Shown here: positions 4,874 through 24,701 of the stretch, piece by piece
Layout: every line of letters starts with the position of its first letter
Position numbering within the stretch: the first letter of the stretch is position 1
From: a virus
IMG/VR virus record: IMGVR_UViG_3300022851_001807
Location: 1 to 24,701 of that record
Direction: 5' to 3' (one strand)
Length of the DNA stretch: 24,701 nucleotides
Position numbers and translations under genes: made by a program
Notes under the pieces: model-generated
What the model was told of the DNA's origin: nothing
Seen by the model: the letters and a program-made list of their open reading frames with translations, nothing else
The model's database searches: none

Positions 4874-6202
4874 ATGTTTGATTATACGAAAACGATCTCG
4901 AAAAAAGAGTACCTCAATACACTAAAGAGTGTATTGAACGAGATTGAAAAGTTGACAAAAGTTGAATCAATCATTTACCAAAATAATGATGAAGTCTTCG
5001 TTTCTGAAAGGCTTCTTACTTATTTGAGGCAAACACAAAACGGAAACTCATTAGAGAGACTTATAAAGGGACAGATATTAGATGCAACTTACAGATCTGA
5101 GATGTTAGGACCTGACAGTACAGACTTGTTTTTGTCATTTTTTCTAAAAACAATAAGGAATATCTTCTTATTGTTAGAGGGTGGAAAAAGTCATATTCAA
5201 ATTGAAAAAGCTCTAAATGTTGGATATGATGACTTTAAAAAAGAGCTTCAAAAAAATAAGCTTAGTCCGAAATGGGAAGATATTGTAAAGCTGGTTTCGT
5301 CTGTCAGCAAAAACAAGAGGATATCAGACATGGTAATTGAAGCAGTCCAACTGTCTGGGCTTGAGGGAAATATTATTCCGTCCCATTCTCATAAGGGGTA
5401 TTCTGTAGAGCTTGTTTCTGGTTACAATTTTGATGTATCAACATATCCGGTATTTAGTTCAGAAGACGGTGGTCGGTGGGAAAGGAAGTCTGTTCGAGTA
5501 TTTGTTGTTGATGGTGTTATAGAAAGGGAGTCAGAGATTCACAATATTTTCTCAAAAGCATATGATGACAATTGTCCTTTACTCTTAGTTGCTAGAGGTT
5601 ATGGAGAAGAGGTAATTGCAACCATAATGGCAAACAAAAAATTGGATGTTTGTCCAATTAGGGTTCCGTTTGAGGTTGAATCAATCAATCTAGTATCAGA
5701 TATTGCCATTGTTTGTGGAGGTCATATTTGTTCTACAATGAAAGGCGATATTGTAACAAATATGGTATATGAAGATTTTCCAATTATAGATCAGGTAATT
5801 TGCACTAAGGAAAAATTGAACATAATCGATTCTAGCTTTGTTAGCTCTGTAAACAATCATGTGACAGACTTGTGCAAAAGAAGAGAAGAGTCATCACAGG
5901 AAAAGGGAGAGCTTATCAGCAAGAGAATCAAGGCTCTATGCTCTCACACCATTCACCTAAAGGTTGGAAGCAAAACAAAGCAAGAAGCTATCAAGGAGCT
6001 AGAAGCTACAGACTTCTCTCTTCGATTAGTAAAAGGTATTTTAGATAAGGGAATTGTAGATCCAAGTACAACAATCTCAGAGTTTAAAGAATATTGTAAA
6101 ATGAGACCAACAATATCTTTACTATCTGCTGTTCATCATGGAATATCTTTGGCAAAATCTCTAGCATTTACAGAGATTGCAATAATGTCAGATATTACTT
6201 AA
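4874..6202 (+). CDS. Divergent GroEL-like (group I type) chaperonin
   Basis: A 442-residue protein that aligns by eye with GroEL, chiefly over the apical domain. [14 protein letters not shown] (155-168) matches GroEL [24 protein letters not shown] (178-187) matches [33 protein letters not shown] (235-255) matches [28 protein letters not shown]...DIAIVCGG (261-283) matches VKAPGFG...[23 protein letters not shown] (361-375) matches VIKVGAATEVEMKEK. In the equatorial domain GroEL's GDGTT is GPDSTD (79-84), the TLGPKGRN nucleotide loop is not seen, and the second equatorial part is shortened by about 80 residues. GroEL is about 548 residues. ATP hydrolysis may therefore be weakened or lost. It may fold phage proteins or mix with the host chaperonin. 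It ends 8 nt into the convergent minus-strand gene. Confidence 0.8.
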   Translation: [442 protein letters not shown]

Positions 6203-10465: not shown

Positions 10466-10792
10466 ATGACACGAAGAACAATCAACAGAGTATTATCAGA
10501 GAAGAACCTAAGCCACACCGAGGCTCACACACTAAAGTCTATAGCCGACGCAGATGGTTCCCCAACAGTTCAGCCAGAAGTGGCTCCCGAGCTATCTAAA
10601 AATGATCCTAGCCCTTCTGAAGATGAGCTAGACGTTGAGCTAGATAGTCGAGACGATCTTGACGATGAAGATGAGGATGATGTGGTCTCTGAGCCAGTTG
10701 TCGAAGAGGCTAAGAAGGTCGAAAAAGTCGTTGAAGACGCAAAAGTAGAACCTAAGCCTAAAAAGGCAAAGAAAAGCAAATCTTCTAAATAA
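10466..10792 (+). CDS. Low-complexity acidic protein with Lys-rich tail
   Basis: A 108-residue protein, probably disordered. A short N-terminal part (TRRTINRVLSEKNLSHTEAHTLKSIADADG) may form two helices. It is followed by a strongly acidic segment (about 45-75, Asp/Glu/Ser runs with DDLDDEDEDD) and a C-terminal Lys-rich stretch (KPKKAKKSKSSK). Such bipolar acidic/basic proteins occur in phages as DNA mimics, nucleic-acid chaperones or structural fillers; nothing here decides between these. AGAGG precedes the ATG. The gene stands alone between the terminator and a convergent minus-strand gene, with an 8-nt tail-to-tail overlap. The antisense Ser/Thr-rich frame is a shadow of the acidic repeats. 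Confidence 0.7.
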   Translation: MTRRTINRVLSEKNLSHTEAHTLKSIADADGSPTVQPEVAPELSKNDPSPSEDELDVELDSRDDLDDEDEDDVVSEPVVEEAKKVEKVVEDAKVEPKPKKAKKSKSSK

Positions 10793-11057
10793 GCGTTCCC
10801 AAATCGTTATCTTTTCTAATATTTTTTAGAATAGTTTTTTCTATCTGGCAGACTCTCATTCTAGTCAGACCAAAATAGTCACCAATTCTTTCTTGTTTTT
10901 CAGGACCTTTCTTTGCAGTAATGTTTACACAGTTTTTTGAATCTAGGTTATCAAACCAGCATCTGCACGATTCCTTCTTGCAAGATAAGTTAAGTCTTTC
11001 ATGTGCTGCAAAGCACGTATCATTTTGAATAACAGTTAATGGATATTTCTTTTTCAT
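10785..11057 (-). CDS. Sigma-70 region 4-like DNA-binding protein with Cys cluster
   Basis: A 90-residue protein. The C-terminal half, RIGDYFGLTRMRVCQIEKTILKNIRK (57-82), has the helix-turn-helix pattern of sigma-70 region 4 ('IGxxxGLTRxRVxQIexxALxkL'), the part that contacts the -35 box. The N-terminal half carries Cys15, Cys26, Cys31, Cys33 and Cys43, arranged like a zinc-binding knuckle. No region 2 is present, so it cannot melt promoters alone. It may be a phage transcription regulator or a partial sigma that redirects host RNA polymerase. It runs opposite to its neighbours and diverges from phoH across 36 bp. A TAAGGA ribosome binding site lies 8 nt before the ATG, and TTTTAGTATG upstream (minus strand, about 11083-11092) resembles the TTTTAGTATAAT element seen elsewhere. 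Confidence 0.75.
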   Translation of the reverse strand: MKKKYPLTVIQNDTCFAAHERLNLSCKKESCRCWFDNLDSKNCVNITAKKGPEKQERIGDYFGLTRMRVCQIEKTILKNIRKDNDLGTLI

Positions 11058-12335: not shown

Positions 12336-12517
12336 ATATAATTAAATTAATTATAAATTGATACAAATAGGATCCTCTGTATTACCCTTAAATTAATTAA
12401 ATTTAATTTAACTTAAGTAATTTTAAATTAGATCTTAATTTAATAGGAGTTAAATTCTTGTTAAATTAAGGTCTTAATTTAATTTACATATGAATTAAAT
12501 TTACTAAATTATACTTA
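12336..12517. repeat. Gene-free AT-rich region with four palindromes
   Basis: 182 bp, nearly all A+T, with no reading frame of interest. Four inverted repeats built from TTAAATTAA-type words are visible. They are 12339-12353 (7-bp arms, 1-nt centre), 12388-12411 (9-bp arms, 6-nt centre), 12423-12443 (8-bp arms, 5-nt centre) and 12461-12482 (10-bp arms, centre GT). TATAAATT lies at 12352-12359, and a possible -10 (TAAATT, 12505-12510) lies 7 nt before the next ATG. The region separates phoH from the sugar island. It could hold a promoter, a terminator or a binding array, or act as an unwinding element of an origin. No G+C-rich terminator stem is present. Confidence 0.75.
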
Positions 12518-14455
12518 ATGGATTTTACACAAAATACTATATTCGGACCAGCCATATCAGAAGAGGTAAAAATTATCTGGGTTTCTGACATGTTTGTTGA
12601 AGATTATGTTGGAGGAGCAGAATTAACAAGTGAAGCACTAATACAAAGCTCTCCATTTGAAGTTATGAAGCTGCATTCTAAAGATGTAACAATGGAACTT
12701 CTAAAAGAAGGTCAAAGTAAGTTTTGGATCTTTGGGAACTTCTCACAATTAGACCTAAACATAATCCCAGCAATTGTAGCTAATATGAAATACTCAATTG
12801 TTGAATACGATTACAAGTACTGTAAGTACAGAAGTCCTGAAAAGCATAAAGAACTATCAGGAGCAGATTGCGATTGTCACGAAACTCAGCATGGTAAGTT
12901 GGTTGCAGGATTCTATCGAGGATCCCAGCATCTTTGGTGGATGGGTGAAAGCCAGATGGATCACTACCACAACCTATTTCCATTCTTAAGTAATGAACAT
13001 ATGAAGAATACCGTTCTTTCTTCTATTTTTGGAAAAAGAACACTTGCTGAAATCAAAGCACTTCGTGAAAGAACGGAGAATATGGATAGAAAAGGGTGGA
13101 TCGTACTGGGATCTAAGAGTTGGGTTAAGGGGTATGAGGAATCTGAACAGTACTGCAAAGACAATGGTTTAGATTATGAAGTTGTGTGGAATATTCCCTA
13201 TCATGACGTACTTAGAAAGTTCGCATTAGCAGAAGGTTTTGTGTATTTACCAAAAGGAAAAGACACATGCCCAAGAATGGTAATTGAGGCAAAACTTTTA
13301 GGGTGCAAGCTTGTTTTGAACGACTTTGTTGAACACAAGGATGAGGAGTGGTTTAATCCAAAACACACAGAAGAAGACAGTGAAATAACCCAGATAGAAC
13401 AATATCTTTATGCTGCCCCAGAGTGGTTTTGGAATGGAATAAAATCTCTTATGAACTATAGGCCAACGATGTCTGGTTATACAACAACAAGAAATTGTAT
13501 AGATCAGCAATATCCTTATGAAGCTTGTATCAATTCAATGCTTTCATTTTCTGATGAAGTTATTGTTATGGACGGCGGCAGCTCGGACGGAACTTTAGAG
13601 CGGCTTCATGAAATGGCGAAGGAAGACGATCGAATAAAAGTTTTCACTGCTGATCTAGATTGGGATCATCCACGATTTGCGGTGTGGGATGGTTTGATGA
13701 AAGACATGGCTCGTCAGAAGTGTCAGATGGATTTTTGTTGGCAACAAGACAGTGATGAGATAGTTCATGAGCTTGACGGCGAAAGGATTATAGAAATAAT
13801 GTCACAGTTCCCTGTGAGCATGAATCTTCTGGCTCTACCCGTGATTGAATACTGGGGTGGTTTCGATAAGGTTCGGGTTGACGTAAACCCTTGGAAGTGG
13901 AGATTGTCAAGGAATAAGAAATTTATTGGACATGGAATTCCAAAACAATTGAGAATCAATGAGGGTAGTGATGACTACCATGCAAGAATCGGAACGGATG
14001 GTTGCGACTACATTCATCGTGAAACAGGGGAGATTATTCCTTGTGCGACGTTTATGACACCAGAAGTTGAGATGCTACGTAGAAGATGTCAAGACGATGA
14101 AGAGTCACGGACAATGTATGAAAATTGGCTGGATAACGTCACGGATGCACTACCAACGGTTTCTCACTTTTCTTGGTGGGATATCGAAAGAAAGATTAAT
14201 ACTTATAAGAATTATTGGGGAAAACATTGGCAATCATTATATAACCTGAAGACAGAAGACACTGCTGAAAACAATATGTTTTTTGATTCAGCTTGGTCTG
14301 ATGTAACTTCTGATATGATCACGGAACGTTCCAAGGAATTGGCTGAAAAATGTGGTGGATGGGTTTTTCACAGTAAGTGGGATGGAAAACAGACTGCTTC
14401 AGTAAAATGTGCCAGAACACTTCCAAAATTTGTTTCAGGTATCTATGAAGAATAG
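12518..14455 (+). CDS. Bifunctional glycosyltransferase: GT4-like domain fused to GT2 domain
   Basis: A 645-residue fusion. Residues about 15-300 are GT-B/GT4-like: GGAELTSEAL near the N-terminus, then VLGSKSWVKGYEES, and the donor-site segment PKGKDTCPRMVIEAKLLGCKLVLND. From about 316 a GT-A/GT2 domain starts (SGYTTTRNCIDQQYPYEACINSM, then DEVIVMDGGSSDGTLERL) with the metal-binding Asp-Ser-Asp at 411-413 (WQQDSDEIVHE). Together they would add two sugars, or one domain may be inactive. GT4 and GT2 use nucleotide-sugar donors, but neither donor nor acceptor can be read from the sequence. It is the first gene of the island. No ribosome binding site precedes the ATG. Its last 11 nt overlap the next glycosyltransferase. 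Confidence 0.85.
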   Translation: MDFTQNTIFGPAISEEVKIIWVSDMFVEDYVGGAELTSEALIQSSPFEVMKLHSKDVTMELLKEGQSKFWIFGNFSQLDLNIIPAIVANMKYSIVEYDYKYCKYRSPEKHKELSGADCDCHETQHGKLVAGFYRGSQHLWWMGESQMDHYHNLFPFLSNEHMKNTVLSSIFGKRTLAEIKALRERTENMDRKGWIVLGSKSWVKGYEESEQYCKDNGLDYEVVWNIPYHDVLRKFALAEGFVYLPKGKDTCPRMVIEAKLLGCKLVLNDFVEHKDEEWFNPKHTEEDSEITQIEQYLYAAPEWFWNGIKSLMNYRPTMSGYTTTRNCIDQQYPYEACINSMLSFSDEVIVMDGGSSDGTLERLHEMAKEDDRIKVFTADLDWDHPRFAVWDGLMKDMARQKCQMDFCWQQDSDEIVHELDGERIIEIMSQFPVSMNLLALPVIEYWGGFDKVRVDVNPWKWRLSRNKKFIGHGIPKQLRINEGSDDYHARIGTDGCDYIHRETGEIIPCATFMTPEVEMLRRRCQDDEESRTMYENWLDNVTDALPTVSHFSWWDIERKINTYKNYWGKHWQSLYNLKTEDTAENNMFFDSAWSDVTSDMITERSKELAEKCGGWVFHSKWDGKQTASVKCARTLPKFVSGIYEE

Positions 14456-15215
14456 ATTTGTATTCGTTGTTCCGTGCTATAATGCGAAAAGCACAATCGA
14501 AAGAATGTTAATGTCTGTTTTTTGTCAGACGTATGATAACTGGATTATCTTAATACGTGATGACATGAGTACAGACGAGACGGATAAACTAATAGTAAAC
14601 TATTGTGTGAAAAACGAAGTTTCTGTTCGACATAATGGGTTCGAAATCAAAGATTGGATGGGTCAAAATCCAAAAGTTTTTGTTCATAAAAATAAAGAAA
14701 AGTTTTGGGAAGTGAAAAATGTACTATCTATGATTAGGGAAGACGTTGTTCGAGATGATGATATTATTTGTCGGTTAGATGGAGACGATTTTCTAACAGA
14801 CTTATGCGCTCTTCAGGACATCAATCTAGCCTATAACAAGTCTGGATGTGAGGTTTTATGGACAGCGCACAGATGGGGTGACACGCTTCAGAATATATCT
14901 AACGCAATGCCTTCCAATGCTGATCCATACAAACATCCATGGGTCTCGTCTCATTTTAAAACTTTTAGAAAGCACCTAATTAATGATGTGGCCGAAGAGA
15001 ACTTTTTTGGAGAAGATGGTGAATATATCAAGAGGACTGGTGATCAGGCGATATATCTACCAGTTCTTCACAAGACAAATAAGAGGGTCTTTTTTCCAAA
15101 GGAAGTGTATTATTACACTATAGACATGAAGCCAGAGACCTTTCAGACAGATGATGCAAAATTCCAAAAATCAGAAATGGAGTTTTTAAGGAATAGAGGG
15201 TTCATTTCTTCATAA
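14445..15215 (+). CDS. GT2-family glycosyltransferase
   Basis: A 256-residue GT-A enzyme: FVFVVPCYNAKSTIERMLMSVFCQTYDNWIIL at the start is the classic GT2 nucleotide-binding entry. RDDMSTDET follows, and the metal-binding DGD lies at 112-114 (CRLDGDDFL). The later KHPWVSSHFKTFRKHL region is the acceptor part. An ATG 12 codons upstream (14409) exists, but the chosen ATG starts directly at the first beta strand and overlaps the previous stop by 11 nt, as is common in this genome. It is shorter than typical GT2 enzymes, with no membrane helix, so it should be soluble. The donor is unknown. Confidence 0.85.
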   Translation: MKNRFVFVVPCYNAKSTIERMLMSVFCQTYDNWIILIRDDMSTDETDKLIVNYCVKNEVSVRHNGFEIKDWMGQNPKVFVHKNKEKFWEVKNVLSMIREDVVRDDDIICRLDGDDFLTDLCALQDINLAYNKSGCEVLWTAHRWGDTLQNISNAMPSNADPYKHPWVSSHFKTFRKHLINDVAEENFFGEDGEYIKRTGDQAIYLPVLHKTNKRVFFPKEVYYYTIDMKPETFQTDDAKFQKSEMEFLRNRGFISS

Positions 15216-15234
15216 CTAAAGAATAGTTATTAAT

Positions 15235-15555
15235 ATGAAAAACATCTACTTTAAAGATACTAACTGTCATTTTAGAAGTGGCGAGAACGTAACAATACGA
15301 ATGGGTGATAAGTGGCACCTTTCTCTCACTCCTGGAGATATTGTTAATGTAATAGATTATGAAACTGAGTCAGTAAGTAGGACAGTAAAAATAATTGGTA
15401 CAAAATATGTTCCGTTTGAAAATATTGAACCTTGCCTTTTAGAGTATGAGACATCTATTTTCTCAACTAAGGATGCAATCTTGAATGAGATGAAGTTGAC
15501 TTATAACAATTTTGATTCAAAAGACTTTGTATCTGTAGTAACATTCTCTGTATGA
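15235..15555 (+). CDS. ASCH/PUA-like domain protein
   Basis: A 106-residue, beta-rich protein. TIRMGDKWHLSLTPGDIVNVID (about 20-41) matches the ASCH pattern of a basic residue after a turn and a GDxVxV strand. VSRTVKIIGTKYVPFENI (about 47-64) is followed by a charged stretch and a final strand (DFVSVVTFSV). ASCH domains are PUA-like and often bind RNA; they are common small proteins in phages, and some hydrolyse modified nucleosides. Why one sits among glycosyltransferases is unclear. It is coupled to the following glycosyltransferase by ATGA. No ribosome binding site is seen. The assignment is by pattern only. Confidence 0.55.
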   Translation: MKNIYFKDTNCHFRSGENVTIRMGDKWHLSLTPGDIVNVIDYETESVSRTVKIIGTKYVPFENIEPCLLEYETSIFSTKDAILNEMKLTYNNFDSKDFVSVVTFSV

Positions 15556-16448
15556 AAACACTTTTTCTCAATAGAAAACCTGTTGAGGGACCATATGGTG
15601 GCGGAAATTTATTCGTAAAGGCTATATGTGAATATGGTGAGAAGTATGGATATAAGGTTATTCATAAGCTTGAATCGCATATAGACGCGATCTTGATGAT
15701 ACACCCAGACCCAGACGAGCTTAGGGTAGGAATCAATGAAATTAAGATCTACAAGAGTCTTTGCCCAAAAACAAAAATAGTTCACAGAATAAATGAGTGT
15801 GATGCTAGAAAGGGTACATCTGATATGGATGAGAAACTCAGATACTGCTCACAAATTACAGATGTTTCTATATTTGTATCAAATTGGATGAAAGACTATT
15901 TTTCTAAAGATTGGTTGACAGAAGAAAGGCACGTAGTCTATAACGGTGTAGATAGTAATCATTTTTCTAAGAATCAAAAAATAGATAATGGTAAAGTAAA
16001 TCTCGTAACTCATCATTGGTCAAATAACTCATTTAAGGGCTTTGATATTTACGATACTTTAGATGGGTGGGTTGGAGATAATGAAGATTACACATTTACG
16101 TACATTGGAAGAGAAAGGGGTAGTTTCAAAAATACAAAAGTTATCAGTCCACTATTTGGAAAAGAGCTTGGGGAAGAGCTTGGAAGGTATGACATTTATA
16201 TCAGCGCTTCTCGCTTCGATCCAGGTCCAAATCATATCATTGAAGCTATGGCTTGCAACATGCCAACCGTCGTACATAGAGACGGAGGTGGTGCTGTCGA
16301 ATTTGCCGGGATGGATAATGTATATGGAACTTTTGGAGAACTTCTTACATTGATCAAGTCAGAAAGCACTTTGTTGAAAAATACTGAATGGAATGTTTCT
16401 TGGGAAGACTGTGCTAAGAGATATTTTCAAATAATTGATCAAATGTGA
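15552..16448 (+). CDS. GT4-family glycosyltransferase
   Basis: A 298-residue GT-B enzyme. The N-terminal domain has KIVHRINECDARKG (acceptor side). VYNGVDSNHF at about 134-143 is the typical interdomain 'hNGvD' strand. LVTHHWSNNSFKGFD follows (donor domain entry). The donor-binding E-x7-E-like segment is YISASRFDPGPNHIIEAMACNMPTVVHRDGG. It is short for GT4 (usually 350-400 residues), like the other GT4 genes of this island. The start overlaps the ASCH-like gene stop as ATGA. A promoter for the next gene overlaps its end. Confidence 0.85.
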   Translation: MKTLFLNRKPVEGPYGGGNLFVKAICEYGEKYGYKVIHKLESHIDAILMIHPDPDELRVGINEIKIYKSLCPKTKIVHRINECDARKGTSDMDEKLRYCSQITDVSIFVSNWMKDYFSKDWLTEERHVVYNGVDSNHFSKNQKIDNGKVNLVTHHWSNNSFKGFDIYDTLDGWVGDNEDYTFTYIGRERGSFKNTKVISPLFGKELGEELGRYDIYISASRFDPGPNHIIEAMACNMPTVVHRDGGGAVEFAGMDNVYGTFGELLTLIKSESTLLKNTEWNVSWEDCAKRYFQIIDQM

Positions 16449-16454
16449 TACACT
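16446..16454 (+). promoter_or_regulatory. Extended -10 (TGATACACT) before a GTG start
   Basis: TGA plus TACACT (four of six bases) overlaps the preceding stop codon and ends exactly 6 nt before the GTG at 16461. A weak TTCAAA -35 (16426-16431) lies 17 nt upstream of the hexamer. No Shine-Dalgarno sequence precedes the GTG, so the transcript would be leaderless. Confidence 0.4.
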
Positions 16455-16460
16455 TACGGT

Positions 16461-17363
16461 GTGAAACCTCTTAGTATTTGTATAACATCTTGCAATAGGC
16501 TCAAATACCTAAAAGCTCTACTTACATCCCTTGAAGACATTCAGGGTGACGATGTTCAAGTATGTGTTGTTGATATGGGTTCGACAGAACCCGGACTTAG
16601 AGATTACCTTGAATCGAGAAATGTTTCATCGTTCTTTTACGACTCTAAAGATAGAGATTGGATAAATGATGAGTACATTGCACGAAACAAGTTGATTGAG
16701 ATGAGCAAGAATGAGACTATCATGTTTTTGCAAGACGATTCTCAGCTAATCGCAACAAAGTCAGTATTGTCTCAAGCCATTGATGACTTCTGGGATATGG
16801 AAGACTGTTACTGCTTGGAGATTTATGGTGTTAGGAAGGTAACGCTAAGAAACACTCTAGACATGACTCCAAGACTTGTTGGAAAAGACCTAGTAGACCA
16901 AAGGAAGTATTGGAGGCGTAGTGATAGGCATTTTCTAACCACTGGAATATACAGAAAAGAAATTTATGATATTGGAGAATATCCCACAGATTGGCCTCAC
17001 GATAAGTCCTATTGGGGTCGTTCAGAAGACTGGTATGACGGAAAGGTCAAGGAAAAATTCCCAAATGGACAGACTTACAGAACACATGTTCCATTAGCAC
17101 TGTCAGTCTGGGATGATAAAAGAGGAGGGTATGCATTCATACGAGAGAGTAAAAGATTTGGAGAATACAACTCTTGCTTTCACGAAAGTGGACTGTATTA
17201 TGAAAAAAATGTTGACAGTCTTATTCATGAGTCTGTTGGTCCTGTAAGTTTTATGGAGATAGCGAAGCCTTTAGGGTGGTCTGTGACGCAAGATGAGAGC
17301 GGAGAACAGAAAAAGTACCCTCAAGAAAAAATAATGCAGGAGGGTCCTTATGAAGATTTGTAA
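16461..17363 (+). CDS. GT2-like glycosyltransferase (GTG start)
   Basis: A 300-residue GT-A protein. SICITSCNRLKYLKALLTSL (5-24) and VQVCVVDMGSTEPGL (32-46) give the GT2 fold. MFLQDDSQL (88-96) replaces the DxD motif with D-D-S. The middle has a Trp/Tyr/Asp-rich acceptor region (TDWPHDKSYWGRSEDWYDG). The GTG start is required because the first strand begins at once and no nearby ATG is in frame. The last codons contain an AGGAGGG sequence that serves the micro-ORF starting inside this gene. The altered DxD leaves open whether it still needs a metal or is active. Confidence 0.75.
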   Translation: MKPLSICITSCNRLKYLKALLTSLEDIQGDDVQVCVVDMGSTEPGLRDYLESRNVSSFFYDSKDRDWINDEYIARNKLIEMSKNETIMFLQDDSQLIATKSVLSQAIDDFWDMEDCYCLEIYGVRKVTLRNTLDMTPRLVGKDLVDQRKYWRRSDRHFLTTGIYRKEIYDIGEYPTDWPHDKSYWGRSEDWYDGKVKEKFPNGQTYRTHVPLALSVWDDKRGGYAFIRESKRFGEYNSCFHESGLYYEKNVDSLIHESVGPVSFMEIAKPLGWSVTQDESGEQKKYPQEKIMQEGPYEDL

Positions 17364-17406
17364 AATTTGCAATAATTTCTTAGAAGGACCGTGGAAAGAA
17401 TTATGA
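17350..17406 (+). CDS. Micro-ORF: 18-residue CxxC peptide
   Basis: The frame encodes MKICKICNNFLEGPWKEL. It has a CxxC knuckle (Cys4, Cys7) like the start of many phage zinc-ribbon proteins. AGGAGGG (17338-17344) lies 5 nt before the ATG, the strongest Shine-Dalgarno sequence in the window. The frame begins 14 nt inside the upstream glycosyltransferase, and its TGA overlaps the next ATG (17403) as ATGA. It may be a coupling leader for the next gene, a real small peptide, or the remnant of a larger zinc-finger gene. All three fit; translation is well supported by the signals. Confidence 0.5.
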   Translation: MKICKICNNFLEGPWKEL

Positions 17407-17594
17407 AAAAATATTTAGAATTAGTTATAAGTGGTAAAAAGGAAACATCATCAATAGACGATTTCGTTAGAATGTGGTATAGAGACCTTAGTTCAAGAGA
17501 AAGACTGTATGACTATCTAGGCATCTCTAAAAAAGAGTATTCCGAATGGGTTGAAGGTACAGATATTGAAACGATAGTCGGTAGACATAGATGA
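17403..17594 (+). CDS. Small conserved-looking protein with LGxxxxEYxxWV motif
   Basis: A 63-residue protein, KKYLELVISGKKETSSIDDFVRMWY at the start and DYLGISKKEYSEWVEGTDIETIV at the end. The second half follows the pattern 'L.d(F/Y)LGm...EY..Wv', which I recall from short hypothetical proteins of phages and bacteria; the function is unknown to me. A GTG at 17391 is an alternative start, but its AAGGA site is too close (2 nt). The ATG used here overlaps the micro-ORF stop as ATGA. Its own stop overlaps the next glycosyltransferase start in the same way. Confidence 0.65.
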   Translation: MKKYLELVISGKKETSSIDDFVRMWYRDLSSRERLYDYLGISKKEYSEWVEGTDIETIVGRHR

Positions 17595-18490
17595 AAATAT
17601 ATTTTGACAATGTTGACTTTGAATCAACATCTGGACCAAATTCATTTGGCAGTAGGCTTGCCAAACAGTTTCTCAAGATGGGTCATACCATAAGCAAGTA
17701 CTCAGAACCATATGATGTTTATATGTGCTTTATCTCTCCAAGAAACAGACCAGCACCAGAATCTAAAAAAATATTAAGGGTTGATGGAATATGGTTCTCT
17801 CCAGATAATTTTGAAGAAAACAACAAATTTATAAAAAACGCATACGATCATGTTGATGCAGTTATCGTTCAGTCAGAATTCGATAGGCAGATGATTGAAA
17901 AATGGTTTGGAAAAAGAGACAATGTTCACGTGATTCACAATGGTATTGAAAAATACGAATCATCTTTCACCCATAGCTCAACCCCAAGATTTGTATGTAG
18001 TGCAAATTGGCATCCTCAAAAAAGGTTAGAAGATAACCTTCGACTTTTTCAAAAAATAAGAAACACAATGAGCGATGCAAAAATGACTGTTCTTGGAAAG
18101 AATGCAGTCGTGGCTGGGCATCGAAGCCTAACAGAGAATGTTGCATTTAAAGGAAGCGTAAGTCACGAAGAGTGCTTAAAGGTTTACAGAAATTCAGATT
18201 ACATGATTCATTTAGCCTGGCTAGACCATTGTCCAAATGTTGTTGTAGAGGCGCTATCTGAAGGTTGTCCTGTAATATGTACAGACTCAGGAGGCACTAG
18301 CGAAATCGTTAGGGATAATGGAATAATTATTCCAGAAACAACACCTTACAATTTCGAGCTTTTGGATTATGATTTACCACATGAGTTAAATTTTAGCAAT
18401 TTCACCTTACCTGAAGAGAAGCCATTTGTAAGGGCAGATTATCTCGATATAGAAAAGGTTGCTAAAAAATATCTTGAGGTGTTTTCATGA
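17591..18490 (+). CDS. GT4-family glycosyltransferase
   Basis: A 299-residue GT-B enzyme with the GT4 layout. SGPNSFGSRLAKQFLKMGH (14-32) is the N-terminal Gly-rich loop and helix. VHVIHNGIEKY (about 112-122) is the interdomain strand, and FVCSANWHPQKRLEDNLRLF is the donor-domain entry. The donor-binding segment is DHCPNVVVEALSEGCPVICTDSGGTSEIV (about 210-238). The 'CPNVVVEAL...G.PVI....GG..E(I/L)' pattern is very typical of GT4. It is shorter than usual. ATGA overlaps link it to the genes on both sides. Confidence 0.9.
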   Translation: MKIYFDNVDFESTSGPNSFGSRLAKQFLKMGHTISKYSEPYDVYMCFISPRNRPAPESKKILRVDGIWFSPDNFEENNKFIKNAYDHVDAVIVQSEFDRQMIEKWFGKRDNVHVIHNGIEKYESSFTHSSTPRFVCSANWHPQKRLEDNLRLFQKIRNTMSDAKMTVLGKNAVVAGHRSLTENVAFKGSVSHEECLKVYRNSDYMIHLAWLDHCPNVVVEALSEGCPVICTDSGGTSEIVRDNGIIIPETTPYNFELLDYDLPHELNFSNFTLPEEKPFVRADYLDIEKVAKKYLEVFS

Positions 18491-19434
18491 AAGTGTTTTT
18501 ATTAAATCCTAATGAGAATTGGGTCGTCGATAGGTTTGTAAAAGAGTGGGTTGAACATCACAACTATCCTAGCTCCAAATTCGTAACTGTAGACAATGCA
18601 AAGTCTTCTGATCTAGTGTATTTAATAGCCGATTGGTGCTGGAAGGATGTAGGTAGGGAAACATTATCAAATAAGAAAGTGATAGCCTCAGTTCATCACA
18701 TAGTACCAGACAAATTCCGATCTGCTGAAATAATGGACTTTAAGGACAGAGATAAATTTATAGATGCTTATCATGTTCCGTGCGAGTTGACGAAAAAGCA
18801 AATAGAAGATCTTACTGACAAGCCAATATACTGTTTTCCATTTTGGATAAATAATAAGATATGGTATCCAAAAGAAAAAGAAAAACTAAGAAAAGAGTAT
18901 GGCATATCAGAAAAAGCATACTTGATTGGAAGCTTTCAAAGAGATACTGAGGGCTTTGACTTAAAGACTCCCAAACTTGAAAAAGGCCCAGATGTATTTT
19001 GTGATTTTGTTGAAGATTTGTCTAGCACTCATCAAGATGTAGAGGTCTTGCTTGGTGGTTGGCGAAGACAATATGTTCAATCCAGACTTAAGAAATCCAA
19101 TATTAGATACCATTATTCTGAACTTCCAAATTTTACTAGGCTAAATGATTTTTACAATATGCTAGACCTATATTTCGTAGGTTCACGCTTTGAGGGTGGC
19201 CCACAGGCTGTTTTTGAATGTGCAGCTACACGAACTCCCATACTTTCTACACATGTTGGATATGCTCCCGAATTACTTCATAAAGATTGTTTAGTTGAAA
19301 ATTCGAACATCTTAACAAGAGATAATGTATCAAGTGAAGAAGTTTTAGATTATAATTTTAAAAATGTAGAAAAGTTTTTTATCCCTAATGGGTTTGATTC
19401 TTTTGAAAAAATGTTTGTAGAGGTAATGAAATGA
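18487..19434 (+). CDS. GT4-like glycosyltransferase
   Basis: A 315-residue GT-B-type protein. The N-terminal half is divergent (NENWVVDRFVKEWVEHH, then KKVIASVHHIVPDKF). The donor-side half is clearer: AYLIGSFQRDTEGFD, VLLGGWRRQYVQSRL and YFVGSRFEGGPQAVFECAATRTPILSTHVGYAPELL (about 236-271), where the Glu of VFECA matches the second Glu of the GT4 EX7E motif. GAGG lies 7 nt before the ATG. It is coupled by ATGA to its neighbours. It probably works in the same glycan pathway as the previous GT4. Confidence 0.8.
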   Translation: MKVFLLNPNENWVVDRFVKEWVEHHNYPSSKFVTVDNAKSSDLVYLIADWCWKDVGRETLSNKKVIASVHHIVPDKFRSAEIMDFKDRDKFIDAYHVPCELTKKQIEDLTDKPIYCFPFWINNKIWYPKEKEKLRKEYGISEKAYLIGSFQRDTEGFDLKTPKLEKGPDVFCDFVEDLSSTHQDVEVLLGGWRRQYVQSRLKKSNIRYHYSELPNFTRLNDFYNMLDLYFVGSRFEGGPQAVFECAATRTPILSTHVGYAPELLHKDCLVENSNILTRDNVSSEEVLDYNFKNVEKFFIPNGFDSFEKMFVEVMK

Positions 19435-21089
19435 TTATAGTTGGATTAATGAATTCTCACGATGGCGGCTACGCTGTATTGGAAGACGGAAAGGTTATAG
19501 AACATACAGAGTTTGAAAGATATACTCGAATCAAAGAGTCAGGAGGAGACAGTCTTAAACTTTTTGAGGAGAGATTTTTACATCCTAGAAACATGACTCT
19601 TGAAGACGTAGATCAGTTTGTGTCTCCAATGCCTTCTTACAATCTTGAAAGAGGAGGTGGAAACACTTATGACACACATGACAGACTTCCTAAGGAAAAG
19701 GTCAGATTCTATTCTCATCACTTATGTCATGCTGCAAATTCTTATTTTTCATCCCCATATGATGAAGCTTTTTCAATATCTATCGACAATGCTGGAATGG
19801 AAGACGATGAACATGGAGAGTCTGTATCGATTTATGTTTGCAAAAAAAATCATATGAAAAAGATTTTTAGTATACCTAGCGAAATTTTTTCATTGGGAGA
19901 TTTATGGGGTCGAATGACAAGATGGGTTTTTAAATTGTGGTCAGGATATCCACGAGGACATCAAGCAGGTTCGGTCATGGCAATGGCAGCTCTAGGAGAC
20001 TCTGACAAATATTACAACGAACTTGTTTTGATGATGGGTAAGGATCACAAATTTGCTGTTACAGCTCCCTCAAATGCTCTCAGGGGCGTCTATGTGCCAC
20101 CTGAAGAAGAGGTTGTTCACCCCTATCTGAATAAGTTTAGACTGATCGCAGAAGATGATCAGGAAAAATACAATTTAGCAGCAGCTCTTCAAAGGGTAAC
20201 CGAAGAATTTTTAGAAACCCTTGTTGAGCAGGCAATGTCATTCAATCAAGCAAATGGTTCGAACATTAAAAACATTTGCTTTTCTGGAGGAGTTTCTCTT
20301 AATAGTGTCTCTATGGGTAAGGTAAAAGATTTTCTTCCAAAAGATTGGAATGTTTTTATCCCGCCCGTTCCTTATGATGGTGGATTGAGTATAGGAGCTG
20401 CGCAATATCATTATCATACAATCTTAGATAACGATAGGGTGTATGATAAGGAATTTTGCTCTCCCTATCTAGGAGAAGGCGGATATGAAATAGATTTAGT
20501 TGAATGTTACGACTCCTATAAAGATAAGGTCAATGTAGAAAAAGTAACAGATCGACAAGTTGCTCAACTGTTAGCTGATGGAAAGATTATTAGCGTATAT
20601 AATGGTTCGAGCGAATCTGGTAGAAGAGCGCTAGGAAACAGATCCATTTTAGCCAACCCAGCTTTGCCAGACATGAAGGCGATGATCAATGAAAAGGTAA
20701 AGCATCGTCAATGGTATCGTCCTTTCGCGCCATCAATCTTGGGAGAGCATGGGGAAGAATGGTTTGAAAATTATTTTCATAGTCCTTATATGGGTTTTGT
20801 TTTCAAAATAAAAGAAGATAAAATTGGAAAAGCTCCAGCTATTGAGCACTTTAATCAAACCGCGAGAATACAAAGTGTAACTAAAGAAACAAATCCCTGG
20901 TATTATGATCTTATCAGTTACTTTTATGAGATAACTGGGGTTCCTTTAGTTCTAAACACATCATTCAATGATAGGGAACCAATTGTTGAAACACCTGAAG
21001 ATGCCTTTAGGTGTTTTTTAGGGACAGATATCGATTATCTGTATTTTGCTCAACAAGGAGATTTAGTGAAAAAAAATGAATTTGAATGA
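19431..21089 (+). CDS. NodU/CmcH-family O-carbamoyltransferase
   Basis: A 552-residue, full-length carbamoyltransferase. These enzymes make carbamoyl-adenylate from carbamoyl phosphate and ATP in the Kae1-like domain and pass the carbamoyl group to a sugar hydroxyl. Visible motifs are IGL-type strand 1 with NSHDGGYAVLEDG (8-20), SHHLCHAANSYFSSPY (95-110, the metal-binding HHxxHA), CFSGGVSLNSV, PPVPYDGGLSIGAA, SGRRALGNRSILANP and HRQWYRPFAPSIL, then LNTSFNDREPIVETPEDA in the C-terminal domain. GAGG lies 7 nt before the ATG, which overlaps the upstream stop. Carbamoylated sugars are known from Nod factors and antibiotics; here the target is probably the glycan made by the adjacent glycosyltransferases. 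Confidence 0.93.
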   Translation: MIIVGLMNSHDGGYAVLEDGKVIEHTEFERYTRIKESGGDSLKLFEERFLHPRNMTLEDVDQFVSPMPSYNLERGGGNTYDTHDRLPKEKVRFYSHHLCHAANSYFSSPYDEAFSISIDNAGMEDDEHGESVSIYVCKKNHMKKIFSIPSEIFSLGDLWGRMTRWVFKLWSGYPRGHQAGSVMAMAALGDSDKYYNELVLMMGKDHKFAVTAPSNALRGVYVPPEEEVVHPYLNKFRLIAEDDQEKYNLAAALQRVTEEFLETLVEQAMSFNQANGSNIKNICFSGGVSLNSVSMGKVKDFLPKDWNVFIPPVPYDGGLSIGAAQYHYHTILDNDRVYDKEFCSPYLGEGGYEIDLVECYDSYKDKVNVEKVTDRQVAQLLADGKIISVYNGSSESGRRALGNRSILANPALPDMKAMINEKVKHRQWYRPFAPSILGEHGEEWFENYFHSPYMGFVFKIKEDKIGKAPAIEHFNQTARIQSVTKETNPWYYDLISYFYEITGVPLVLNTSFNDREPIVETPEDAFRCFLGTDIDYLYFAQQGDLVKKNEFE

Positions 21090-21543
21090 AGTTTTAATTA
21101 AGTTTGGAAAGGGATTTCCAAAATCCGCATACCTAGAGTTGGGAACACAGTCATCTGAAAGGCTCATAGCCATAAAGGATCACTTTAGCTCATTATATGG
21201 TGTTGATGAAGATCCGCAAAATTTTACAAATGTATGTAGAGACGTAGTTAAGCATAAGAACATAACCCTTCTTTGTGGAAAGTCCTTTAGAATTCCTCCA
21301 AATAAGTACAGTGTTGTTGTCAATAATTGTTCTAACTTAAGAGAGGGCTTGGAGTCAATACTTGTTAAAAACATAAACCCCGAACCTTTTCTGATGGTAT
21401 TTTTATCTCCATTAACAAAATCTTTTATTGAAGATTACTTTAGTGGAATAGTGGTTGATTTAGTTGAAGGAGCGTCAGTTGTAGCTATATCTCAAGAATA
21501 TCGTCTTGATTTGTTGGAAAGATTCAAGAAAGAGGGTATATAA
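21076..21543 (+). CDS. Methyltransferase-like protein, short
   Basis: A 155-residue protein. SAYLELGTQSSERLIAIKDHFSSLYGVDEDPQNF (17-50) matches motif I (hELGtxxG-type) and the acidic end of strand 2 of class I SAM methyltransferases. NITLLCGKSFRIPP may be the next strand. The glycine-rich loop is weakened (G-T-Q-S-S) and the later part, KYSVVVNNCSNLREGLES, lacks the usual Asp-x-Gly-x-His. It may be an inactive relative or another Rossmann protein. It overlaps the carbamoyltransferase end by 14 nt, and AAGGAG lies 14 nt before the ATG. It closes the first part of the island; a promoter follows. Confidence 0.55.
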   Translation: MNLNEVLIKFGKGFPKSAYLELGTQSSERLIAIKDHFSSLYGVDEDPQNFTNVCRDVVKHKNITLLCGKSFRIPPNKYSVVVNNCSNLREGLESILVKNINPEPFLMVFLSPLTKSFIEDYFSGIVVDLVEGASVVAISQEYRLDLLERFKKEGI

Positions 21544-21554
21544 AAACTCTTTTG

Positions 21555-21560
21555 TATAAT
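21555..21560 (+). promoter_or_regulatory. TATAAT -10 before the sugar-nucleotide genes
   Basis: A perfect TATAAT lies in the sequence CTTTTGTATAATG and ends 12 nt before the ATG at 21573, so the leader would be about 6 nt. No TTGACA-like -35 is present at 17 nt. It would start a separate transcript for the dehydratase, aminotransferase, acetyltransferase and glycosyltransferase genes. Confidence 0.5.
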
Positions 21561-21572
21561 GTAAATTAGGTT

Positions 21573-22601
21573 ATGAGATACTTAATTTTTGGAGGAACTG
21601 GATCGCTTGGAAAGGCCTTAATTAATCGCCTTGGTCCGAGTGATGATGTTGTCGTATTTTCTCGTGATGAAGGAAAACATTGGACAATTAAGAATGCAAT
21701 ACCTTCAAAGTGGGAGGTTCAATTTATTGTGGGTGATATGAGAGACTATCAGGCAGTAGAAAGAGCCATAAAAAAGGTAAATCCTCAAACAATAATAATT
21801 GCATCAGCACTAAAGCAAGTTGGAACATGTGAAAATTTTCCAAGCGAGAGCATAAAAACAAATATCCTAGGAGTACAGAATGTTGTGGATGCTTGTGAGG
21901 CTGTCCCTATGCAGACAGACATGGTGCACCCAAGACTTCCTAGGACAGTTTTGATGGTATCAACAGATAAGGCGTGTTCTCCAATAAATGTTTATGGTAT
22001 GTGCAAAAGTATTGCTGAACGAGTCGTTACTGAAAGGTCTCGCTCATCATCTGATACTAGATATATAGCCGTCAGATATGGCAACGTTCTAGAGTCTAGA
22101 GGTTCTGTAATTCCACTATTCAAATACCTTGGAGAGAACGCTCCCGCAATAACATTGACTCACGATGAAATGACTCGATTTATCATGACACTAGATGATA
22201 GTATTGATCTAATTTTAGATGCTTTGAAAAAGGCAGAAAATGGAGATATGTGGATTCCAAAACTCCGCGCAATGAAAATCAAGGATTTAGCTGATATTTT
22301 TGGAGATATTTACAATAAGACAGTAAAGGTAACTGGAATAAGGCCAGGAGAAAAGCTACACGAATCCCTGATAAACACAGTAGAGTCACTAAGGGTTGTT
22401 GAGGATTGTGGTAGATATGTCGTAAAGCCTGCTTGGGATAGCAAGGTCTACAATTATAAGACGTTTGAGTATACAAGCGAGGACGATCTTATGACTAAGG
22501 ATGATTTAGTGAAGTACCTAAATTCTCTTGGAATTTTAGATTGGGATTTGTCAAGATTTAAGGGCGCATCTATTGAGGAAATAAGGGTAGAAAAGGAATG
22601 A
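21573..22601 (+). CDS. NAD(P)-dependent sugar-nucleotide 4,6-dehydratase, PseB/FnlA-like
   Basis: A 342-residue short-chain dehydrogenase/epimerase. GGTGSLG (7-13) is the NAD(P)-binding loop. GDMRD lies at about 51-55, and ALKQVGTCENFP matches the 'AALKQVPxCExxP' of PseB and FnlA. STDKACSPINVYGMCK carries the Tyr141-x3-Lys145 pair. TRFIMTLDDSIDLI is substrate-domain sequence and GIRPGEKLHESLI is the hallmark of the CapD/PseB group. The family converts UDP-GlcNAc to a 4-keto-6-deoxy sugar, with or without C5 inversion. The next two genes are an aminotransferase and a GNAT enzyme, the order of the early pseudaminic acid pathway. FnlA- or CapD-type products are alternatives. Its last 4 nt overlap the aminotransferase start. 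Confidence 0.85.
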   Translation: MRYLIFGGTGSLGKALINRLGPSDDVVVFSRDEGKHWTIKNAIPSKWEVQFIVGDMRDYQAVERAIKKVNPQTIIIASALKQVGTCENFPSESIKTNILGVQNVVDACEAVPMQTDMVHPRLPRTVLMVSTDKACSPINVYGMCKSIAERVVTERSRSSSDTRYIAVRYGNVLESRGSVIPLFKYLGENAPAITLTHDEMTRFIMTLDDSIDLILDALKKAENGDMWIPKLRAMKIKDLADIFGDIYNKTVKVTGIRPGEKLHESLINTVESLRVVEDCGRYVVKPAWDSKVYNYKTFEYTSEDDLMTKDDLVKYLNSLGILDWDLSRFKGASIEEIRVEKE

Positions 22602-23731
22602 TTTACCCCTTATTCAAAGTTCATGTAGATATACCAGAAGCCCTAAAGGGAATTGAGAAAGTTTTAGAGTCTGGGTTTATTAATGAGGGAGATCAGGTTA
22701 CAGAGTTTCTTAATGGAATGAGAGTGTGGGTTGATGGATACCCTGTTCTTATGAATGCGTGCACTAGCGCACTAGAAACAGCACTACACTTATTGGATCT
22801 AAAAGATGGTGATGAGATTATCACAACAAGCATGACATGTATTGCCACGAATACACCAATTAAGAATTCGTTAGCTAAAATAGTTTGGGCAGATATTAAT
22901 TCCAAAACTGGAACCTTAGATCCAGAAAGTGTCGAAGCTGCAATAACAGATAATACTAGAGCTATTATGTGTATGAATTGGGGTGGATACCCATGCGACC
23001 TAAAGGCATTAAGGGAAATTTGTGATAGATACAATCTAAAACTTATTCAAGATTCGGCACATTCTTTTGGTGCAAGATACCAAGGGAAATTTGTAGATCA
23101 TTTTGCTGACTATACATGTTTTAGTTTTCAAGCAATAAAGCACCTGACGACAGGCGACGGAGGAATGCTTGTGTGCAAAGATGAAAAAGATGCTCACAGG
23201 GCAAATTCTCTAAAGTGGTTTGGGATTGATCGAGAAGCAACAAAGGATGAGCAAGGTTCGTGGAAAGGCCAGGCTTGGGATTTCGACGTATTGGAGGCTG
23301 GATTCAAATACAACATGAATAACCTTTCTGCGGCTATTGGAATAACACAGCTTAGAAAAATTAGATCGATAATAAGTGTTCATCGAAGGAATGCTTCGAT
23401 ATATAATGAGATTTTGGACCCTGCTATTGGTCGACTTCAATATCCTAAGGATGCGTACCCAACGTGCTGGGTTCATACAATCCTAACACCAGAAGGTACT
23501 TCAGTTGAAGATCGAGACAATATTATAAAGCAATTAAATGATGATGGAATACAAGCAGGACTTGTTCATGTCCCTAACCATTATTATAGTTGTTTTAAAG
23601 ATGAGTATGTAGATTTGCCTGAAACAGATAAATTTTACGAAAGCCAAATATCTCTTCCATGTGGATGGTGGCTTGAGAAGTCAGAAATAGTAAAAATTGC
23701 CAACAAGGTAAATGAGTATGTATTATCTTAG
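22598..23731 (+). CDS. PLP-dependent sugar aminotransferase (DegT/DnrJ/EryC1 family)
   Basis: A 377-residue enzyme that transfers an amino group, normally from glutamate, to a keto sugar. NACTSALETALHLLDLKDGDEIIT (about 53-76) is the cofactor phosphate region. IQDSAHSFGARYQGK carries the Asp that pairs with the pyridine ring. FSFQAIKHLTTGDGG (176-190) carries the PLP lysine, Lys181. The family signature GFKYNMNNLSAAIGITQLRKI (about 236-256) and VHVPNHYY near the end are also present. Length fits the family (360-400). It overlaps the dehydratase stop as ATGA, with AAGG directly in front. The product would be a 4-amino-4,6-dideoxy sugar nucleotide if it follows the dehydratase, as in PseC. Confidence 0.92.
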   Translation: MIYPLFKVHVDIPEALKGIEKVLESGFINEGDQVTEFLNGMRVWVDGYPVLMNACTSALETALHLLDLKDGDEIITTSMTCIATNTPIKNSLAKIVWADINSKTGTLDPESVEAAITDNTRAIMCMNWGGYPCDLKALREICDRYNLKLIQDSAHSFGARYQGKFVDHFADYTCFSFQAIKHLTTGDGGMLVCKDEKDAHRANSLKWFGIDREATKDEQGSWKGQAWDFDVLEAGFKYNMNNLSAAIGITQLRKIRSIISVHRRNASIYNEILDPAIGRLQYPKDAYPTCWVHTILTPEGTSVEDRDNIIKQLNDDGIQAGLVHVPNHYYSCFKDEYVDLPETDKFYESQISLPCGWWLEKSEIVKIANKVNEYVLS

Positions 23732-24236
23732 AGATGTTGAAGAGGATGATCATGAATGGCTTGTTGAGCTTCACAATGATCCATTGGTATTAAGAAACTT
23801 AACGGATCCATCTCCTATTACCATGGAAAGCCATATGAATTGGTGGAAGTCTCTTAATAAGAAAAAGAATCCTAGAAAAATCTTTTGCGAACAAATATCA
23901 GATCCATTAGGGAAGAGTATTGGTTTTTGTAAATTCTATAATGTAGATACTGAAAACAGGAATTGCGTTTTAGGAGCAGATATTCACGAAAGTCATCGTG
24001 GAAAAGGTTTGGCAAAAACAATGTGGAAGACAATGCTTAATTATTGTTTTTCAGATCTTGGATTGCATCGAGTAGGACTAACAACAGCAGAATATAACAC
24101 AATTGCAAGAAGGGTATATTCTGATATTGGTTTCTCGGTAGAAGGAATTTCTGTCGAATCTTTATATCGAGATGATAAATACTACAATCAGTATTGTATG
24201 TTTCTAATGAAGAAAACGTGGGAAAAGACTATATGA
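23718..24236 (+). CDS. GNAT N-acetyltransferase, PseH-like
   Basis: A 172-residue GNAT enzyme of the RimJ/PseH type. It begins YYLRDVEEDDHEWLVELHNDP, the usual first strand and helix. RGKGLAKTMWKTML (94-107) is the acetyl-CoA pyrophosphate loop (R-G-x-G-x-A). LHRVGLTTAEYNTIARRVYSDIGFSVEG is the typical 'L.rv.l.v...N..a...Y...GF...G' end. An ATG two codons upstream (23712) is possible, but the chosen one has AAGGT at 8 nt and the normal N-terminus. Placed after a dehydratase and aminotransferase, it probably acetylates the new amino group, as PseH does. It overlaps the aminotransferase by 14 nt and the next gene by ATGA. Confidence 0.85.
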   Translation: MYYLRDVEEDDHEWLVELHNDPLVLRNLTDPSPITMESHMNWWKSLNKKKNPRKIFCEQISDPLGKSIGFCKFYNVDTENRNCVLGADIHESHRGKGLAKTMWKTMLNYCFSDLGLHRVGLTTAEYNTIARRVYSDIGFSVEGISVESLYRDDKYYNQYCMFLMKKTWEKTI

Positions 24237-24586
24237 AAAAGACTCCAAAAGTATTTGTCGGAACACTTTATGTTAATGAGCCTCAATTTGAGAAGTGCTG
24301 TGATGCTATATCTTCTCAAAAAGGAGTGGAGGTAACACACTCCATAATCAAGGGTAAGTCGGAGCTTGAGGCTCACAATATTCTGTGGAACCAGTGGAAC
24401 ACTGTTAGGAGCTGCTACGACATGTTTGTTAAGGTCGACGCAGATACTGTCTTGAGGGAGGGCGTTCTACAGCAGGCGGCAGAATTGATGACAAGTGATA
24501 AGAGGATCACGGGCATGCAGATCCCTCTTCATGACTATTCTACAAATGTAGAAATAGCAGGATTAAATTGTTTCTCCCAGACATGA
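24233..24586 (+). CDS. GT-A glycosyltransferase, N-terminal part (frame ends early)
   Basis: 117 residues. KVFVGTLYVNEPQFEKCCDAISSQKG is a GT2-like first strand and helix. MFVKVDADTVLREGVLQQAAEL contains the metal-binding Asp69-Ala-Asp71. The frame then stops after GLNCFSQT, before the acceptor half of a GT-A fold. Sequence that reads like the continuation lies in the next frame from 24583. A one-base loss in the CCC run at about 24575-24577 would explain this: CCCC would read ...NCFSPDMTF.... It is therefore either a frameshifted gene, a sequencing error, or two ATGA-coupled half genes. The start is set by the ATGA overlap with the acetyltransferase. Confidence 0.7.
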   Translation: MKKTPKVFVGTLYVNEPQFEKCCDAISSQKGVEVTHSIIKGKSELEAHNILWNQWNTVRSCYDMFVKVDADTVLREGVLQQAAELMTSDKRITGMQIPLHDYSTNVEIAGLNCFSQT

Positions 24587-24701
24587 CTTTTAGCACATCG
24601 AAAGACAGCCTATTTTGTGATCGAGGAGCTGAGGTTGGTCACGATATTGTTTTGAAGGGCCGTAAGGTCGAGTTCATGGCACCAGCTGGATATCACTGTC
24701 A
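24583..24701 (+). CDS. Continuation of the glycosyltransferase in another frame (partial)
   Basis: An open frame of 39 codons runs off the window end: MTFSTSKDSLFCDRGAEV at the start, then HDIVLKGRKVEFMAPAGYHC. It starts in an ATGA overlap with the preceding stop. The content (FCDRG, GHDIVLKGR, APAGYHC) reads as the C-terminal half of the GT-A enzyme whose N-terminal half lies just upstream, rather than as an independent protein. Whether it is translated by re-initiation, or is joined after correction of a one-base gap, cannot be told here. Confidence 0.55.
   Translation, partial: MTFSTSKDSLFCDRGAEVGHDIVLKGRKVEFMAPAGYHC

Follow-up and report, generated by a model that had tools for sequence, protein, structure and literature searches.

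A glycosyltransferase-rich island with conserved ends and a swapped middle in a putative huge T4-type phage, possibly acting on virion tail proteins

The window analyzed here, the whole 24,701-bp IMG/VR virus record IMGVR_UViG_3300022851_001807 (numbered along its + strand), holds the left two-thirds of an island of about 19 kb dedicated to glycan synthesis, in which conserved end genes enclose a middle that is swapped among relatives. The island starts at position 12518 with the gene for a glycosyltransferase (GT) that we call GT-A*, and all likely genes from there to the right end of the contig lie on the + strand. Its source, judging from gene content, is most probably an uncultured huge T4-type (gp23) phage. 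The island enzymes may glycosylate virion tail proteins in the cytoplasm, a reading to which we assign a probability of about 0.5. A first-pass annotation of this DNA had proposed two targets, virion proteins and the host surface. The former is better supported, without proof, because the island adjoins baseplate and sigma factor genes in all relatives and tail fibre genes in one clade.

The extent of the island became apparent from a sibling contig, L004 (part of a 20,967-bp contig), found in a scan with the island carbamoyltransferase as the query. L004 is 99.988% identical to the window over 8,502 bases and then continues rightward; L004 and L067 add about 6.8 kb to the island. The one-strand glycan island of 12 kb that the first-pass annotation had placed at 12518-24701 was correctly recognized, and its size was understated: the completed island has 11 GT genes, including a broken one and two open reading frames (ORFs; L004 8740 and 9684) that had no Pfam matches and were read as further GTs from gene context and sequence. 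The first part of the continuation consists of the remainder of the broken GT gene, these two ORFs and a short UDP-sugar dehydrogenase gene, and the second of genes for a PD-(D/E)XK nuclease, a GT4 enzyme, a protein of unknown function and another GT4 enzyme. The last GT gene is followed on its 3′ side by genes for a small protein that has a single membrane segment, for a gp55-like sigma factor and for a second small protein; in the sibling contig, a 445-aa protein and then gp25- and gp6-like baseplate wedge proteins come next. The identification of the sigma factor (Sigma70_r2 in two of nine family members; T4 gp55 as the sole match reported among solved structures, weak at E 0.22) is weaker than those of gp23, gp25 and gp6. 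The possibility that the region was bacterial chromosome, raised at first pass, was checked: because T4-type baseplate wedge genes adjoin the island and the T4-type gp23 capsid protein is encoded by 16 of 20 large relatives (it is on neither the window nor the sibling contig), the region is phage DNA. The same genes, with the less certain sigma factor, are those of a T4-type myovirus.

Eleven relatives were read across the island, and 12 regions, the sibling contig included, reach its right end. GT-A* was the first island gene in 11/11 relatives, and the right end (the nuclease, the two GT4 genes, the gp55-like sigma gene and one small protein) was present in 12/12 regions, with gp25- and gp6-like genes next in 11. 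Island size among relatives ranges from 18 to 35 kb; the ends are common and the interior differs. The interior pathway genes of the relatives, identified from sequence with a Pfam scan on part of them only, include those for heptose kinase, cytidylyltransferase, a heptosyltransferase-like (GT9-like) protein, UDP-galactopyranose mutase, GDP-mannose dehydratase and RmlA/RmlB-like enzymes. Genes for PseB/PseC/PseH-like enzymes, carbamoyltransferases and methyltransferases also occur there, and NeuB was found in six records of the lineage. The core genes are reordered in the L050-L065 group, where a shorter relative of GT-A* comes immediately after the nuclease and the two right-end GTs, and the whole set is downstream of PhoH. 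The description of the pathway as soluble, without membrane flippase or polymerase, held across the lineage. Among 293 island ORFs of at least 100 aa in the 11 relatives (284 of them co-oriented with GT-A*), eight have one marginal hydrophobic stretch and none has two, and the lipid-carrier initiating transferase family PF02397 was found in 0/34 records. On both counts the islands resemble neither Gtr O-antigen conversion nor Wzx/Wzy systems.

The neighborhood of the island lends moderate support to a virion target. A large Ser/Thr/Gly-rich ORF lies at most three genes upstream of GT-A* in 14 of the 32 dereplicated loci with a readable upstream side, while in one whole relative, used as a comparison, only 4.7% of genes have such a neighbor. 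Peptidase_S74 or YadA_head domains, or a common C-terminal motif, are present in part of these ORFs, and contig L128 represents a further case of tail-fibre-like genes before the island. There is a precedent in the jumbo phage XacN1, which encodes two GTs and in which at least two glycoproteins were detected by proteomics (PMC5852040).

Several observations weigh against tail proteins as the acceptor. The fibre-adjacent loci fall in one clade of 22 rows in the GT-A* tree (support 100/99); since fibre adjacency is nearly confined to that clade, it represents one old, retained association and not 14 independent ones. The window lies outside this clade, with PhoH upstream, and on its side of the tree the island adjoins sigma and baseplate genes only. 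The T4 late-promoter consensus, TATAAATA, was not found near the island or before most genes of one whole relative. The AlphaFold2 model of GT-A* (predicted local distance difference test, pLDDT, 90; predicted template modelling score 0.79) matches, in its GT2 half, the structures of chondroitin and heparosan synthases, SunS/ThuS peptide glycosyltransferases and TarS at about 10-22% identity. These matches are too general to name an acceptor and speak to the fold only. Lastly, soluble GTs could equally act on the host lipopolysaccharide (LPS) core, which the host itself would flip.

The island as present in the window, with the gap that precedes it, is listed below; Pfam calls were judged by curated cut-offs.

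12336-12517, no strand: AT-rich gap directly 5′ of the island, a possible control region with six copies of TTAAATTAA/TTAATTTAA
12518-14455, +: GT-A*, a two-domain glycosyltransferase of 645 aa, first gene of the island (Pfam GT2 domains over cut-off)
14445-15215, +: GT2 glycosyltransferase, recurrent second gene of the island (PF00535, 1.4e-10; 23/28 regions)
15235-15555, +: 106-aa protein, function unassigned (no Pfam match)
15552-16448, +: GT4 glycosyltransferase (PF00534 over cut-off; 17 regions)
16461-17363, +: GT2 glycosyltransferase (PF00535, 1.1e-9)
17391-17594, +: 67-aa protein, function unassigned (no Pfam match)
17591-18490, +: GT4 glycosyltransferase (PF00534, 1.6e-16; 24 regions)
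18487-19434, +: GT4 glycosyltransferase (PF13692 and PF00534 over cut-off; 16 regions)
19431-21089, +: O-carbamoyltransferase of the TobZ/NodU superfamily (PF16861, 5.5e-61; PF02543, 2.2e-23; phrog_1601, 8e-106)
21076-21543, +: 155-aa protein, function unassigned (no Pfam or PHROG match)
21573-22601, +: UDP-GlcNAc 4,6-dehydratase-like protein, PseB/FnlA type (PF02719, Polysacc_synt_2, 3.7e-74)
22598-23731, +: DegT-type nucleotide-sugar 4-aminotransferase, PseC-like (PF01041, 4e-85)
23712-24236, +: GNAT acetyltransferase, PseH-like (PF13302, 3e-18)
24232-24701, +: GT-like gene with a frameshift near 24586, running off the contig (homology to intact proteins of relatives)

Most functions named at first pass were recovered: the carbamoyltransferase, with both its N- and C-terminal Pfam domains, the dehydratase/aminotransferase/acetyltransferase triad, and six of the at least seven GT genes (12518, about 14445, 15552, 16461, 17591 and 18487) by Pfam. 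The seventh (24232) was recognized by homology and is frameshifted. It is intact in five relatives (234-248 aa), and the frameshift is identical in the sibling contig (gene at L004 8033-8743); the gene may be a pseudogene or a phase switch, or the frameshift may be a shared assembly error. The methyltransferase-like assignment of 21076-21543 found no backing, as the protein had no profile match to the methyltransferases of the lineage and its single-sequence model reached a pLDDT of 36. A methyltransferase encoded outside the island, at 2150-2755 of the window, resembles the methyltransferase family that relatives have in their islands (hhalign 97%). The 106-aa protein had no match to the 120-aa c19 family located nearby in relatives.

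All six copies of TTAAATTAA/TTAATTTAA in the window lie at 12342-12482; shuffled sequences had a mean of 1.24, and 0/100 reached six. The cluster was absent at the corresponding place in relatives and was rejected as a lineage-wide element, being found only in the window. L021 has a different repeat, AATTAGATA, in five copies at the corresponding place before its island. Elsewhere in the window, 4874-6202 encodes a divergent GroEL-like protein (phrog_5725, 3.3e-23) conserved in 15 compared regions, and 10785-11057 (- strand) a 90-aa protein conserved in 14 regions that has a weak partial match to the sigma factor family phrog_351.

The best NCBIfam models for the triad are PseB, PseC and PseH, and every score falls below the equivalog cut-off: 241 bits against 408 for the dehydratase (FnlA, 204), 233 against 424 for the aminotransferase and 61 against 93 for the acetyltransferase. 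The dehydratase keeps the catalytic motifs GGTGSLG, STDKA and YxxxK, and the aminotransferase keeps the SFQAIKH lysine motif. A near-complete Pse-type (nonulosonate) route, as hinted at in the first-pass annotation, did not materialize. No NeuB/PseI was found up to the right end of the island in the sibling contig and no PseG/PseF-type domain among its ORFs, a negative that covers the completed island and not the remainder of the phage genome; beyond the right edge of the window, where PseG, PseI and PseF were to be looked for, GTs and the short UDP-sugar dehydrogenase follow instead. With the triad below equivalog level as well, a complete pseudaminic acid route was rejected. The triad likely makes a UDP-diacetamido-trideoxyhexose that, because NeuB-type enzymes are lacking, would be used directly. 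The UDP-sugar dehydrogenase (L004 10541-11440) is short: its 299 aa cover the N-terminal and central family domains only. Those of relatives are equally short (264-334 aa).

The carbamoyltransferase aligns over its full length with TobZ and with 7xb6. It has both PF02543 and PF16861, and residues H96, H100, D119 and D316, which we take to be the metal-site ligands of TobZ, are kept in 8/8 members of the lineage, as in the TobZ/NodU O-carbamoyltransferase superfamily. Its best phage matches are in cyanophages and Pelagibacter phages (about 31-40% identity). Of the three TobZ positions singled out in an eLife study of 5-hydroxymethylcytosine (5hmC) carbamoyltransferases (PMC8670742), G421 and R423 are kept here and W408 is replaced by V, I or L. 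The same study traced those carbamoyltransferases that have group 1 GTs beside them to unmodified contigs; this agrees with a sugar as the acceptor.

From this gene content we infer the following route, in its sugars, order of transfer, acceptor and benefit. Soluble enzymes would produce activated sugars in the host cytoplasm, the PseB/PseC/PseH-like enzymes converting UDP-N-acetylglucosamine (UDP-GlcNAc) to UDP-2,4-diacetamido-2,4,6-trideoxyhexose and the UDP-sugar dehydrogenase yielding a uronic acid. A core glycan would then be started and extended by GT-A* and the two right-end GTs, all of them conserved; the variable GTs would attach outer sugars to it, and the carbamoyltransferase would cap a hydroxyl. 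In the last and least certain step, the glycan would be built up on tail proteins of the virion while these are still in the cytoplasm; the likeliest acceptors are the Ser/Thr/Gly-rich tail fibres, during their synthesis late in infection. Glycosylated tails would alter adsorption or shield the particle.

GT-A* is composed of a GT-B/GT4-like half followed by a GT2/GT-A half. A tblastn search with it gave no match in 50,697 phage records. Its relatives in IMG/VR number 61, of which 43 are full-length or nearly so (about 45-58% identity), on contigs of up to 324 kb. An alignment of 35 sequences had a mean column identity of 59%, with the GGAE, DGGSxDG and DxD motifs invariant or nearly so. Among isolates, Flavobacterium phage immuto and Microcystis phage Mel-JY01 have the capsids closest to the gp23 of the lineage. 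A search with DNA ligase as the bait recovered no relatives. In cellular genomes, GT-A* was found in two metagenome-assembled genome (MAG) contigs only, and a cellular origin was rejected: one of them, L128, carries tail-fibre-like ORFs and the same type of island and is therefore a phage contig. L128 is binned in a Halobacteriovorax MAG, a possible but weak hint of the host.

The main rival explanation places the soluble GTs at the inner membrane face, where they would lengthen the LPS core of the host or another glycan linked to a lipid; the host's own machinery would export and display the product, and superinfecting phages would be blocked. The GTs that build the LPS core are also soluble or peripheral enzymes. 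The heptose-pathway genes in the islands of relatives fit such host-surface editing, as does the fast turnover of interior genes, which suits antigen-like diversification, and comparable cyanophage GT clusters were interpreted as surface-modifying by Iyer et al. (PMC7824862). However, the 11 islands and 34 records yielded no flippase, polymerase, ligase or lipid-carrier transferase, unlike O-antigen conversion sets, and the genes next to the islands encode baseplate proteins and sigma factors, and tail fibres in one clade. Furthermore, no lysogeny gene is among the annotated genes of the window, so a need to exclude superinfecting phages over the long term is not evident. Taking both sides together, we consider host-surface editing unlikely, although it is the most serious competitor.

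A second possibility, that the GTs and perhaps the carbamoyltransferase decorate 5hmC in the phage genome, is improbable. A thymidylate synthase (TS) homologue in five large relatives has Asp at the position of E. coli Asn177, a signature linked to dCMP-modifying enzymes, and some phage carbamoyltransferases act on 5hmC (PMC8670742). The distribution of the carbamoyltransferase, however, differs from that of the TS homologue: the homologue is present in G028 and G025, whose islands lack a carbamoyltransferase, and G015 shows the reverse. In G028, the TS homologue lies near 238.7 kb, about 90 kb from the island, in a stretch (233939-240688; L094/L095) with a weak GT match, two epimerases, the Asp177-type TS homologue, a thymidine kinase-like gene and a dCMP deaminase, which is probably a separate DNA-modification locus. 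DNA modification may thus exist in the lineage and appears to have its own locus. To our knowledge, eleven GTs far exceed the number used by known DNA glycosylation systems. The loss of W408 and the unmodified contigs mentioned above point the same way. Carbamoylation of 5hmC in particular was disfavored, with the carbamoyltransferases lying among GTs and neither co-occurring nor clustering with the dCMP-hydroxymethylase-type TS homologue. The least probable explanation, a secreted or stored polysaccharide or a small glycosylated metabolite instead of a conjugate, could draw on the likeness of the GT2 half of GT-A* to chondroitin and heparosan synthases and on the carbamoyltransferases of antibiotic pathways, suggested for some cyanophages (PMC7824862), but the island has no exporter or membrane protein and no polyketide or peptide synthesis genes, and it is a core, syntenic feature adjoining structural genes.

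Among described phages, the lineage looks the same as, or close to, the moraphages. These are aquatic T4-related jumbo phages of up to 307 kb with four putative GT orthogroups in their core, where PhoH, gp25, gp6 and a sigma factor are also encoded; variable genomic islands were noted as well (PMC12619734, 2025). The likeness is one of gene types, and HSP70, tried as a moraphage marker, was present in only 1/19 relatives. An island of this kind is not described in the moraphage paper, nor are conserved ends, nucleotide-sugar pathways or a link to tail genes (PMC12619734). The cyanophage "LPS" or capsular polysaccharide clusters are likewise GT-rich in T4-type marine phages, some with carbamoyltransferases (PMC7824862), but GT-A* has no match there, and the bracketing of the island and its gene set differ. 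Xanthomonas phage XacN1 also has a carbamoyltransferase (hit H25) beside its GTs; these are only two, and no island of such size is reported (PMC5852040). The triad brings together the three enzyme types of the first half of pseudaminic acid synthesis, side by side, without the PseG, PseI and PseF of that pathway. The abundance of GTs in such phages has been published already; the architecture of the island was not found described in the literature consulted.

Related uncultured phages have few reported core genes, GTs being one kind of them, and the moraphage paper pointed to the variable islands as a subject for future work (PMC12619734). The bracketed architecture turns this into a concrete, testable model of core GTs, swapped GTs and neighboring candidate acceptors. 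We suggest, tentatively and with less confidence than in the tail-protein target itself, that a lineage-wide, interchangeable sugar cassette, with core GTs at its ends and a swappable middle, puts O-antigen-like, carbamoylated glycans on the phage's own tail fibres. If so, the cassette would be a diversifying coat on the virus itself, and both protein sequence and sugars made by the phage would govern the adsorption and recognition of these huge phages.

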